From Polyangiaceae bacterium (GTDB lineage: Bacteria; Myxococcota_A; Polyangia; Polyangiales; Polyangiaceae): a DNA stretch of 64,000 bases. The position numbers were made by a program, and so were the translations under genes. Shown here one piece after another: positions 27,374 through 63,471 of this stretch. The notes below the pieces were generated by a model. The model saw only the letters and a list, made by a program, of their open reading frames with translations, was not told the DNA's origin and ran no database searches. The DNA is taken from the NCBI GenBank assembly GCA_019637295.1, contig JAHBVX010000001.1, forward strand, positions 99,501 through 163,500, given 5' to 3'. Position 1 is the stretch's first letter, and each line of letters opens with the position of its first letter.

Positions 27374-27825
27374 GAGATAACCTCGAGAACCTCGACGCGA
27401 TCCCGCAGTCCACGTTCGACGAGTTCGCTCGAGACTTCCGCAACGTGTGGGCAACGCTGCACTTGCTCCAGACGTCCATCCGGGCGCTGATCGACCTGGC
27501 GAGCTATCTTGTCGCGCGCCATGCGCTGCCCGCGCCGCGTACCAGCCACGAGCTGTTCGAGCGCCTGGAGAACGCAGGCTTGGTGCCGCCAGGGACCGCA
27601 GTCCGCTTCGGTCCCATCGTGGGTTTTCGGAACCGGGTCGTACACCTCTACGACAAGGTCGACGAGCGCCGGGTATACGAGATACTCACGGAGCACCGCG
27701 GTGACCTGGCGGAGCTATTCGACTTGCTGCTCGCGGTCCTGGAACAGGACACCCCTTGGAAGCGAAGGGCACCGAGCCCCAACCCCCTGAGGTCATGGGA
27801 GCCGGGTCGGCGTGGGGGTGAGCGC
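27340..27825 (+). pseudogene. hepT: HepT-like HEPN toxin, start codon and stop codon both missing
   Basis: The frame carries the HepT ribonuclease motif RNRVVHLY (RX4HXY, the AMPylated Tyr included) and a typical helical HEPN body (LDVLRDNLENL...). Recognisable homology begins right after an in-frame TGA at 27337-27339, but the first legal start codon in frame is the GTG at 27445, about 35 codons into the domain. An ATG at 27336 followed by TFDRP looks like the genuine start but is in a different frame. At the 3' end there is no stop: the frame runs into the following lipoprotein gene (27826). Either an indel has broken the gene or the assembly carries errors here. Confidence 0.7.
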
Positions 27826-28218
27826 ATGGTGAAGATCGCAGGGCTCTCGGTCGCGATGATCGGCGTGGGCCTCGGCAGCGTCGGTTGCGACAAGGTCCTG
27901 AGCGCGGTCAAGAAGAGCCAGAAGCACGCGGCCATCGCCTACGACGAGAAGACGGGAGGATGGGGCTACAGCCACGATCACCTGACCCCGGACCTCGCCG
28001 CGAAGGCCGCGACCCAGAAGTGCTCGACGTGCACCGTGCGTCTCACCTGGAACCAGGGCTGCGGTGCGCTCGCGCAGTCGGAGAGCAACAAGGAGATCAT
28101 GACCACGGCGCTGGGGAGCAACCGCCCCGCCGCCGAGAGCGCCGCCAAGAAGGACTGCGCCGACAAGGGTGGCGGCACCTGCAAGGTGCTCGTCTACGCC
28201 TGCAACAGCACCAATTGA
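27826..28218 (+). CDS. DUF4189-like small lipoprotein
   Basis: The product has 130 residues. The signal peptide ends in lipobox GSVGC. The mature part has two halves of a repeated pattern, with WGYSHD...CSTCTVRLTWNQGCGALA and the C-terminal GGTCKVLVYACN, which fit the DUF4189 domain (paired cysteines, a GCxALA core). The function of that family is unknown. The ATG at 27826 is preferred as start because it gives the signal peptide. The same frame is open upstream through the HepT-like gene, so a fusion product is formally possible but would bury a signal peptide internally. Confidence 0.78.
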   Translation: MVKIAGLSVAMIGVGLGSVGCDKVLSAVKKSQKHAAIAYDEKTGGWGYSHDHLTPDLAAKAATQKCSTCTVRLTWNQGCGALAQSESNKEIMTTALGSNRPAAESAAKKDCADKGGGTCKVLVYACNSTN

Positions 28219-28240: not shown

Positions 28241-29056
28241 CTACTCCGCTGTCAGAAGCACCACGTACTCGGCCTCCGACGCGAGGAAGCCGCCGGGCTC
28301 CGGCGTGAATCCGACCGCGGGCGGGTAGAGCAGCACCAGCGCTGTCGTGAGTTCTCGCTCCTTGGCCAGGGCGCCGGGCATCGCGGTTCGCTGCGCGCGC
28401 TGCGCGACGGCTTGCACCTCGGCGACCGGGAGCGGCTCCGCCGGTTGGCGGCTGAGATCGATGCCGCGTGCGTCCGGCAAGTCCGGCCCCATGCAGCTCT
28501 GTCCAAGGTCGTCTTGCTCGAAGCTGGGCGGGTAGGTCACCTCGCCACCGCCGGTGACCACGATGCCGCCGCCGAACACGGTCAGGCCGTGGCGGGCACC
28601 GACCGCGACCACGCCCCCGAAGTCCAGGGGTGGCACGTTGAACACCCAGGCGTCCGGAGGTGCGCTGCCGGACACGAGCGCGCCGTGCCCGTAGCCGGTG
28701 TCCGCTTGCGCCACGGCGCGAGCGCTCGCCTCGTCCACCACGGCCACGGGACCGCAGATCGCGACATGCCCGACCACCTGCAGAGACTGGTACGCGAGCC
28801 GGATCACCGCCGTGCACACCGGATCCGACGGGAGCTTGGCTGCGAGGGAGTTCACCAGCGGCGAGCAATCCACCAGCGCGCCCGCGTCGCCCCCCGAGCC
28901 CGCGCCCCCCGCGCCTCCGGGCCCAACGCCTCCCGCGCCGGCGCTCGCACCCCCAGTGGCCGCGTCGCTGCCCGGCGCTTCGCTCTCGCTCCGTGCGTTG
29001 CAGGCCGACGTGGCCACGAGCCCCAGCACTCCCAGCGACCATCCTAGCGCGCGCAT
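28241..29056 (-). CDS. Putative lipoprotein
   Basis: The product has 271 residues. The signal peptide ends with lipobox ATSAC, followed by a Gly/Ala/Ser linker (about residues 25-60). The folded part has two or three cysteines and alternating short strands; I do not recognise the family. The start codon shares its first base with the stop of the upstream subtilase gene (TGATG), so it is translationally coupled to it. The protein may therefore be a partner or inhibitor of that protease, which is an inference from position only. Confidence 0.72.
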   Translation of the reverse strand: MRALGWSLGVLGLVATSACNARSESEAPGSDAATGGASAGAGGVGPGGAGGAGSGGDAGALVDCSPLVNSLAAKLPSDPVCTAVIRLAYQSLQVVGHVAICGPVAVVDEASARAVAQADTGYGHGALVSGSAPPDAWVFNVPPLDFGGVVAVGARHGLTVFGGGIVVTGGGEVTYPPSFEQDDLGQSCMGPDLPDARGIDLSRQPAEPLPVAEVQAVAQRAQRTAMPGALAKERELTTALVLLYPPAVGFTPEPGGFLASEAEYVVLLTAE

Positions 29057-30529
29057 CAGTACGAACTCCATGCCATTCCGAACGTCGTCGACGTCAGGCC
29101 GTTCCAGCCGATCAAGTACATCTTCAGGACATAGTCCTTCTGAGTGCCGGACGTGTTGGTGAATGCCACGTACGAGTAGTTCGTGTTTGTGTTCCACGCC
29201 AGCCCCACGATGTTCGCGCCGTCGTAGACGACAGTCGCGATGTGTGGGTACGGGTTCGGCGAGCAAGACCACGAGCCCGGGTTGGACGGACAGGTGGGTC
29301 GGGTCTGCGCGAAGAACGCCGATCTGAGTTGCTTGCCGTTTGGCACTCGAGCGTTGTACTGCTCAGAATAGAAGCTCTGTGCGGGCGTCCCTCCGGACGT
29401 CAGACTCCCGTAGTCGTGTCCAGCCCTGATGGGACTGTTTCCCCCGTTGACCTTCGCTCCCGCGATCAGCACCTCCGCCGCGCGCCATGCACTCACCAGG
29501 CCCGCTCCGTCGCGGTCATCGGTAGAGTCATTGAGATTCAGGACCGTACCGTCGGTGTCTTCATCCGCGGCGACCATCATCCCGGGGACCAAGACTTCAG
29601 GCCATGACTCAAGCGCTGTGTTCGCCTCGTGGAGTGACGCGACGATTCCCGCGACTTGGGGTGCTGCTGCGCTGGTGCCACCCCAGTTTACGAAGGTGGT
29701 GCCCGGGGTGTACCCCGCAGTGTCCACGTTCTCGGAAATCGCAGTCAGGTGTGGGACCTCGTACCCCGCCTCGTCTGATGTCCCATTCTTCCACGACTTG
29801 TTGTCGACAAAAGCAAGCGCGCGCTGACTGCTCCCGTTCAGCTCGAGGGTGCCGCCGACCGATAGCCCGTTCCGGAGCTTGTTGCAGACGTTGTTCTGGA
29901 AGCCATTGCCGGCTGAGGCAGCCACGAGCGGATAGGGCGACACGCGCGCCTTGTAGTCGAAGAAGATGTCATGAGCGTTCGGGTCGGGGCCGGTTCCGGT
30001 GCAATAGCTGTGGTTGATGATCCGAGCGCCATTGGAAGTGGCCCAGTTCAGCGCGCTCGCGAAGATGTCCGGGCCATGTGTGGTGCAGTTGCCGGTGTAA
30101 TTGGCCATGATCGTAGTCGCGTCCCGCGCCATCCCCCCGCCTCGGCCGTGTCGAACCTGCCACGCAATTCTGCGCTGATCGAGGAATGTGCGATCTTGAA
30201 TGCGACCCTATCGGCTTCTTCGATCTCGGCTAGCTCGACGACACTTCCGGTCTGGTCCCGAGACAGAAACCGCAACTCCCCAGGCTTGCTGGGCCTGCAG
30301 ACGGTCGTGGTCACCCACGCCCCAACATTCTCGAAGTGGTGCTTGTGCGCGACGATGGGATCACAGTCGAGCGAGGCCGACGAGACTGCGCCAAGCGTGA
30401 TGGATCCTTCTTCGCTATCAGCCCCACACCCAACCACGAAGAACGAACAACAGACCGTGAGTGAGTGAGTGAGTGAGTGAGTGAGTGAGTGAGTGCGTGA
30501 GTGCGTGAGTGCGTGAGTGCGTGAGTCAT
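29056..30529 (-). pseudogene. Subtilase-type serine protease lipoprotein, frame broken at two places
   Basis: The C-terminal 358 residues (frame ending at 29056) have the subtilisin-family catalytic serine motif GTSAAAPQVAG and SAGNGF. The N-terminal part lies in another frame and has a lipoprotein signal (CCSFFVVGC) and a propeptide-like stretch up to about 30140. The frames meet at a six-base C/G run (30133-30138); one extra base would join them. The best start is the ATG at 30529, preceded by AGGGAGG. It is separated from the lipobox by a 68-base tetranucleotide tract (30457-30524) that leaves it out of frame. Eighteen or fifteen units instead of seventeen would restore frame. The gene could be inactive, phase-variable or misassembled. 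Confidence 0.68.
30457..30524. repeat. Tetranucleotide tract of 17 units (GTGA/GTGC)
   Basis: Nine perfect GTGA units (30457-30492) are followed by four GTGC-GTGA pairs (30493-30524). On the coding strand this reads TCAC/GCAC and encodes THSL/THAL repeats. It starts three bases inside the first codons of the subtilase gene, between a strong ribosome site plus ATG and the lipoprotein signal core. Confidence 0.95.
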
Positions 30530-30703
30530 GCGTCCTCCCTGGCCTCGCCCATGTGCCCTTGGAAGCGTGAGGTGAACTCGCGCGTCTGTCAAACATCGGG
30601 CTGGGCGTTGAAAGGCTCGCCTCGCACGCGCCCGCGGTCCGCCGCAAACGTCGGGACTGCGGCTCCGGTGGTGCGAACGGGGCAAGGGGGCTAGATTGAT
30701 CGC

Positions 30704-31282
30704 GTGAGCGTCGCCATCCCCGCCGCGCGCCTGTCAGCGGCTGAGTTCCTCGCCTGGGAGCGTCTGCAAGAAGCGCGTCACGAGTTCCACCATGGCGAGG
30801 TGTTCGCGATGGCTGGTGGAAGCTTGCGCCACAACGCCGTCGCCGCGGCGCTGATCCGGGATCTGGGCGTGGCGCTGCGCGGCGGCTCTTACCGTGTGCT
30901 GACCAGCGATCAGCGCATCGCCGCTCCGCCAGGCGACCGCTACGCCTACCCTGACGTCGCCGTGGTGTGCGGGCGCGTCGAGCTCGAGGCGGGCACGACC
31001 GATGTGCTCTTGAACCCCAGCGTGATCGTCGAGGTGCTCTCCAAGGCGACCGAGGCCTACGATCGCGGCGCCAAGTGGGAGGGCTACCGGGGCCTGCCCT
31101 CGGTGCAGGACTACCTCTTGGTCTCGCAGGGCGAGGCGCACATCGAGCACTTCCAGCGGCAGCCCGACGGCTCGTGGCGGTACGCGGTGGCCGAGGTCGG
31201 CGGTAGCGTGCGGCTCACCAGCGGCGTGCTGGTGCAACTCGACTCGGTCTTCGCCGGAGTGTTCGAGCTCGCGGGGGAGTAG
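30704..31282 (+). CDS. Uma2-family (DUF820) putative endonuclease
   Basis: The product has 192 residues and starts at a GTG. It shows the Uma2/DUF820 restriction-like fold: HEFHHGEVFAMAGGS near the N-terminus, the acidic YPDVAVVC strand, then PSVIVEVLS with the catalytic glutamate and KWEGYRGLPSVQDYLLV. The family belongs to the PD-(D/E)XK nuclease superfamily and is abundant in cyanobacteria and myxobacteria. Its biological role is mostly unknown. It stands alone next to the tetranucleotide tract and is followed directly by the AgmX-type genes. All active-site positions appear to be kept. Confidence 0.88.
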   Translation: MSVAIPAARLSAAEFLAWERLQEARHEFHHGEVFAMAGGSLRHNAVAAALIRDLGVALRGGSYRVLTSDQRIAAPPGDRYAYPDVAVVCGRVELEAGTTDVLLNPSVIVEVLSKATEAYDRGAKWEGYRGLPSVQDYLLVSQGEAHIEHFQRQPDGSWRYAVAEVGGSVRLTSGVLVQLDSVFAGVFELAGE

Positions 31283-63034: not shown

Positions 63035-63471
63035 GGCTGCGGTGGTCCGCCGTACAGCGAGGCGGCACCCGCGCTGCCCGAGTCCTCATCGCCGCCGTCC
63101 ACGGGCGGTCCGCCGTAGAGCGGCCCCGCCGCCCCGATCCCGCCGTTGCCCGCTTCCCCTGCCGCGCCCGCGTTGCCGCCGCTCGACGCGCCGCCGCTCG
63201 ACGCGCCGCCGCTCGACGCGCCGCCGCTCGACGCGCCGCCGCTCGACGCGCCGCCCGTGCCGCCTCCGCCGTCGTCGTCCGAGCCACACGCCGTGGTCGC
63301 CAGGCTGGCGGCCAGGGTCGCGCCGAACGCGACCAACGCGGCACGACCGAGCCGGCGGCCGGGTAGCGGTACTACCGGCGCCGTGGACAGCGCTCCGCCA
63401 CAAAACGGACAGGCGGGCTCGTGGCTGCGAACGTGACGACTGCACTCACCACACGGGACGAGACTCGGCAT
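63031..63471 (-). CDS. Tandem array member 4: zinc-ribbon/Gly-rich protein with YGGPP motifs
   Basis: The product has 146 residues. It starts 3 bases after the radical SAM stop and ends in an ATGA overlap with member 3. Order: CGECSRHV...CPFCGG, RAALVAFGATLAASLATTAC, GSDDDGG, five copies of GGASS (15-base DNA repeats at 63181-63255), then PLYGGPPVDGG and a terminal SLYGGPPQP. Position directly behind the maturase makes it the prime candidate substrate. Lipobox-like cysteine suggests export and lipidation after the ribbon leader. Confidence 0.85.
   Translation of the reverse strand: MPSLVPCGECSRHVRSHEPACPFCGGALSTAPVVPLPGRRLGRAALVAFGATLAASLATTACGSDDDGGGGTGGASSGGASSGGASSGGASSGGASSGGNAGAAGEAGNGGIGAAGPLYGGPPVDGGDEDSGSAGAASLYGGPPQP
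63181..63255 (-). repeat. Five perfect 15-base tandem units
   Basis: GCTCGACGCGCCGCC (plus-strand reading) is repeated five times without change. It encodes GGASS repeats in array member 4. The perfect identity points to recent slippage or gene conversion. Confidence 0.95.

Follow-up and report, generated by a model that had tools for sequence, protein, structure and literature searches.

A tetranucleotide array at the start of a subtilase-like lipoprotein pseudogene and a set of probable slippage-switched secreted-protein genes in Polyangiaceae

The 64,000-nucleotide stretch of Polyangiaceae DNA considered here (the window) contains a tetranucleotide array that, judging from its sequence context, is very probably the switch at the 5' end of a pseudogene for a subtilase-like lipoprotein and one member of a set of loci encoding slippage-switched secreted proteins. 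The position of the repeats, the sizes of their units, the frame relations, the recurrence of the layout and the differences in unit number and frame between paralogues and orthologues were all observed directly. A Shine-Dalgarno-like GGGAGG (30534..30539, minus strand of the window), read directly from the letters and scored together with the start, stands 4 nt 5' of an ATG start codon (30527..30529, minus strand, frame a) that was assigned by frame computation together with the start score. The ATG is followed by the array (30457..30526, minus strand), which spans 70 bases or 17.5 units and reads ACTC/CTCA on the coding strand. Tandem Repeats Finder reported it as GTGA x17.5 at 30457-30526, with 87% matches and no indels. 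It is made of two parts, a perfect GTGA x9.75 (30457-30495) and an alternating GTGAGTGC x4.75 (30489-30526); on the coding strand, the alternating part, ACTCACGC, adjoins the ATG and the perfect part, CACT x9.75, adjoins the signal core. The signal-peptide core with its lipobox, VCCSFFVVGC (30426..30455, minus strand), is in frame b, another frame than the ATG. It starts 74 nt past the A of the ATG, in phase 2, and the ATG is thus out of frame with the signal core; one unit more or two units less would place both in one frame. A preliminary description of this DNA had reported a strong ribosome site and ATG followed by 17 four-base units and a signal core, with the ATG out of frame at 17 units and in frame at 18 or 15, and our computation bears out both points. 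The lipoprotein signal was recognised by eye from its hydrophobic core and lipobox Cys, and the window gene also passed a hydrophobicity test. A sigma-70 scan of the region 5' of the gene returned no promoter match. A pattern search for (GTGA)5 across the 7.65-Mb genome found one array alone, that of the window. On the opposite strand, about 175 bases past the ATG of the switch gene, starts a Uma2-family endonuclease-like gene (window 30704-31282, plus strand, Pfam 107.7 bits).

The gene behind this array is broken. To delimit its parts we used a family profile of 668 positions built from nine relatives, which was matched frame by frame. A remnant of the N-terminal domain of a subtilase-like lipoprotein (30138..30425, minus strand, frame b) covers profile positions 5-119, and the C-terminal part of the subtilase body (29056..30132, minus strand, frame c) covers positions 308-668. 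At the deletion junction between them (30138..30144, minus strand), about 188 residues are gone (profile 119 to 308) and the reading passes to frame c; the gene therefore changes frame twice, from a to b at the signal core and from b to c at about 30140. The body matches Pfam Peptidase_S8 with 39.2 bits (cut-off 21.8). The window copy is a deletion pseudogene, with no intact frame behind the repeat: since profile positions 120-307 are absent and the frame changes, no array length gives a protease. A working protease at this site had been considered and was ruled out, as the middle part of the copy is deleted. Past the junction, frame b is open as far as a stop at 30048, and the gene, if "on", would be predicted to yield a fragment of about 160 residues ending there. 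What had been called a "secreted protease" gene is thus better described as the remnant of a subtilase-like lipoprotein; neither the protease body in the third frame (29056-30132) nor the loss of the gene's middle had been part of the preliminary description. Elsewhere in the window, an ORF at 27445-28218 (plus strand) combines an N-terminal HepT-like and a C-terminal DUF4189 match in Pfam, as a fusion or a misjoined frame.

Protein searches identified three larger paralogues of the window protease in its own genome, and three such searches found relatives of the family in 8 of 59, 12 of 183 and 12 of 317 genomes, among them Sorangium cellulosum So ce26 and several Polyangiaceae or Myxococcales MAGs. 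The family profile matches solved subtilases (best E 1.6e-11); the paralogue L014 taken alone scores 18.6 bits against Peptidase_S8, which is under the cut-off. In the family alignment E267, H303 and S473 are invariant and stand where a subtilase triad would be expected, and a Glu seems to take the place of the Asp. The Asp/His region is entirely absent from the window copy, which has thus lost the first two of these positions. Structure prediction for the family with AlphaFold (A3, 8 rows) gave a poor model, with a mean pLDDT of 49, which was set aside for fold searching. Comparison with the profile revealed intact bodies behind the repeat in L014, L128, L135 and L130, and broken bodies in the window gene, L017, L019 and L136; three of the four protease copies of the own genome are broken. 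Short C-terminal fragments of the family, which point to decay or to the sharing of a domain, occur as L020 (G000:C1:1171786-1171899) in the own genome and as L011, L015 and L018 in G001, the one same-genus genome.

The members of the family have in common the site of the repeat, immediately 5' of the lipobox, and differ in its unit. At this signal-peptide site, the own genome has CTCA x17.5 in the window, GCAC x9.5 in L014 and CAAGC x8.2 in L017, and other genomes have GGTTC x19.8 (L128), AGCACGC x5.3 (L135), GCATCTC x11.3 (L130), GCATCTC x3.3 (L136) and G x13 (L116). The units are thus of 4, 5, 7 or 1 nt, none of them a multiple of three. Lipobox cores were recognised by eye as ALVAATATGC in L014 and SVLLFATAC in L128, and the start codon of L017 is a GTG in phase 1. 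In a 20-row tree, the repeat-bearing rows all fall inside one clade of 13 rows (support 100/99), where 8 of the 12 rows that have an N-terminus carry a repeat and the other four have a signal peptide without one; the sequence closest to the window copy, 62% identical to it, has a different repeat unit. A constant offset from ATG to signal peptide in all paralogues, suspected by eye, was ruled out by the computed offsets. In So ce26, an 8-nt unit, (GCGTGCCA)6.1, lies at L113:5754-5802, directly after another ATG and some 200 nt 5' of where the protease homologue starts; given this distance, it was left out of the signal-peptide switches.

The same layout is encountered at genes unrelated to the protease, as other secreted-protein genes also carry out-of-frame repeats at their 5' end. 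A pattern search found (GCAC)6 in 9 of the 108 family genomes and in 14 of the 317 class genomes. In four of these genomes (G000, the own genome, G014, G114 and G115), all 14 (GCAC) arrays of at least six units stand, as judged by eye, at the 5' end of a gene whose product is secreted, one of these genes being decayed. An automatic test, which asked for a ribosome site and a start codon at most 45 nt upstream, a 100-codon open frame and a hydrophobic stretch in the first 30 codons of that frame, was passed by 13 of the 14 arrays, compared with 245 of 20,000 random positions (1.2%). For the five other family genomes with (GCAC)6, the test was passed in none and two looked similar by eye. The test is strict, and the switch loci L017 (as L071), L128 (as L176), L130 and L191 fail it. 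Most of the other switched proteins received no name from Pfam searches. Matches below the threshold were Exo_endo_phos in L210 and a thrombospondin repeat in L208, and the significant PDB matches of L208 were to thrombospondin-type repeats alone. By eye, HELGH was noticed in L203 and TARHC/GHGDSGGG in L208. The contingency-gene layout put forward in the preliminary description is therefore real and recurs in paralogues and in unrelated secreted-protein genes, but the copy in the window is a deletion pseudogene.

Repeats in prokaryotes were reportedly the subject of a general survey by Mrazek in 2007. We listed the perfect repeats in 2,055,481 bases of the own genome (about 27%), a census in which three stretches (parts of C8 and C19) were chosen because they hold or flank paralogues, one of them containing the L014 array. 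Eight perfect 4-, 5- or 7-nt repeats exceeded the thresholds. Three are 4-nt repeats of at least 16 nt, namely those of the window, of L014 and of L203, the last at the beginning of a different lipoprotein gene; one is a 5-nt repeat of at least 20 nt (L017); and four are 7-nt repeats of at least 21 nt, of which L191 begins a secreted-protein gene and the other three lie elsewhere. Five of the eight are signal-peptide switches by eye, and three by the automatic test. Five order-5 Markov simulations of the same size gave 0, 0, 0, 0 and 1 four-nt repeats, 0-1 five-nt repeats and no seven-nt repeats, and the 4-nt array of the window is accordingly more than a chance feature. In G114, the 5-nt and 7-nt matches within 334,261 bases near its two family members were those two members, and the stretch also has one 8-nt repeat. 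Two copies of (GGGCAGT)6.9 are found about 600 bases apart in L092 (4624-4671 and 5232-5279), each directly following a small ORF, the two ORFs being similar.

At 23 loci the repeat, with units of 1, 4, 5 or 7 nt, lies between the start codon and the body of the ORF. With the best-scored start codon, five of them are in the signal-peptide frame (on) and the others are split into 9 and 9 between the two remaining frames. The count leaves out L244, which is decayed, L019, whose N-terminus is lost, and the three (GCAC) arrays L206, L213 and L214, where no signal peptide is clear. The signal peptides, and also several of the start codons, were assigned by eye, and the starts of L116, L128, L208 and L258 are uncertain. 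In 12 of the 18 off loci, the sequence from the last stop to the array lacks an ATG, GTG or TTG in frame; three loci, L207, L249 and L209, are in frame and stay open as far as the locus reaches. The number of units varies, and sets the frame, between paralogues and between species, as compared with one genome per species. L203, with 7.25 units, is off and L207, with 11.75 units, is on, the two being 77% identical and from one genome. Likewise, L130 (11.3 units) is off and L136 (3.3 units) is on, with a frameshift in the body of L136. Finally, the orthologue-like L210 (15.75 units) and L211 (12.25 units) are 92% identical, each coming from a different genome of one genus.

Both the 5/9/9 split and the differences within pairs are explained by free drift of the repeat length, and are explained neither by a fixed start codon nor by a one-way programmed frameshift. 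We accordingly give next to no credence to programmed ribosomal frameshifting on the repeat, which would join the ATG to the signal-peptide frame with the DNA unchanged: it would account for an ATG with a strong ribosome site lying out of frame at most loci, but a single direction would be expected where the off loci split evenly, five loci require no shift, and the units vary from locus to locus. It is also very improbable that intact genes were pushed out of frame by errors of sequencing or assembly in low-complexity DNA. Several loci do come from metagenome-assembled genomes, in which repeat lengths are open to miscounting, but counting errors would not create arrays or their placement, and the on/off differences are found in several assemblies, one of 5 contigs. 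A miscount could alter the state of single loci. The arrays might instead be relics of dead genes, with repeats building up in untranslated sequence, as the broken bodies of the window gene, L017, L019 and L136 and the 18 of 23 loci out of frame could indicate. We regard this as unlikely, because the four bodies listed above as intact and the three loci open to their end would have no place in it, and neutral repeats are not expected at one site between start and signal core, where the automatic test found 13 of 14 arrays against 1.2% of random positions. The predominance of off over on loci (18 to 5) also fits, together with the three broken proteases of the own genome, with loci in decay.

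Under slippage switching, which we favour, short repeats with a unit length not divisible by three would act through their position after the start codon and ahead of the hydrophobic signal-peptide core. Slipped-strand replication would alter the number of units, as the layout and the loci of Haemophilus and Neisseria lead us to infer. In one frame of three, the ribosome would read into the signal peptide and the protein would be exported (on), while in the two other frames it would meet an early stop (off), and each cell lineage would thus come to have a random, heritable subset of exported proteins. In the window gene, the switch would have been retained and the enzyme behind it deleted. The own genome carries MutS-type genes and hence no repair defect is evident; tetranucleotide tracts are able to vary in repair-proficient cells.

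Similar leaders precede different genes. L014 and L249 are 92.5% identical over 40 bases around the ribosome site and start and encode proteins that show no relation, and about 27 bases, ending at the array, are common to L209, L210 and L242. This suggests that leader and repeat may travel together to the 5' side of different genes. We tentatively raise, as a serious possibility, that some Polyangiaceae have a phase-variable secretome, in which a cassette of leader plus repeat (ribosome site, ATG, short peptide and out-of-frame repeat) would have spread to the 5' side of genes that are unrelated to one another and encode exported proteins, several of these proteins looking like hydrolases. If so, switching would amount to bet-hedging, or to a division of labour in making costly exoenzymes, and not to immune evasion, in a setting of social, predatory soil bacteria.

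Among the closest known systems are the tetranucleotide contingency loci of Haemophilus influenzae, a host-adapted pathogen (PMC2651432); here, by contrast, the genome is of Polyangiaceae type, the switches are at signal peptides, and there are several unit sizes per gene family. In Neisseria, the opa genes have CTCTT repeats in the leader peptide (PMC3960869) and PilC has a poly-G in the signal-peptide region (PMC13190605). As at our loci, the repeat lies within the region coding for the signal peptide and, as we propose for them, the frame sets the on or off state, whereas here the unit differs between paralogues and the site is kept. NalP of Neisseria meningitidis is a phase-variable subtilisin-like lipoprotein protease, an autotransporter with a poly-C tract (PMC5472700); the present family would share with it a subtilisin-like protease, a predicted lipid anchor and switching through a repeat within coding sequence, but here the repeat is 5' of the signal core and the Pfam search gave no autotransporter domain. 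The yellow/tan phase variation of Myxococcus xanthus, also a reversible variation in a myxobacterium, involves transcriptional programmes and a regulator, and a repeat mechanism is not mentioned in the passages on it in two articles (PMC4880591, PMC8538405). This switch alone turned up, and no repeat-driven one, for myxobacteria in the open-access literature as far as its text was available, in agreement with the earlier remark that such a layout would be unusual in a myxobacterium. Slippage contingency genes are described mostly from host-adapted bacteria, and a 2025 review points to a gap in knowledge for the bacteria of soil and ocean (PMC11868660). The signal-peptide repeat design is now seen in relatives of Sorangium with large genomes, where exported proteins carry it. 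Should switching be confirmed, myxobacteria would have a mutational route, with known sites, to cell-to-cell differences in their exported enzymes.

Two further observations concern other repeats. First, the window has at 63175-63255 a perfect tandem repeat of 15 nt in 5.4 copies, whose unit is a multiple of three. Second, a family of secreted-looking proteins of about 190 amino acids (L165, L166, L167) was found in one of 59 genomes searched, the own genome. All three full-length members have a run of G or C, 9-14 nt in length, 5' of the gene (L044:1028-1041, L055:9502-9510 and L090:16259-16271, respectively), with a TTGAC-like hexamer nearby in two of them. Such runs could possibly be variable promoter spacers, and thereby a transcriptional counterpart of repeat switching.
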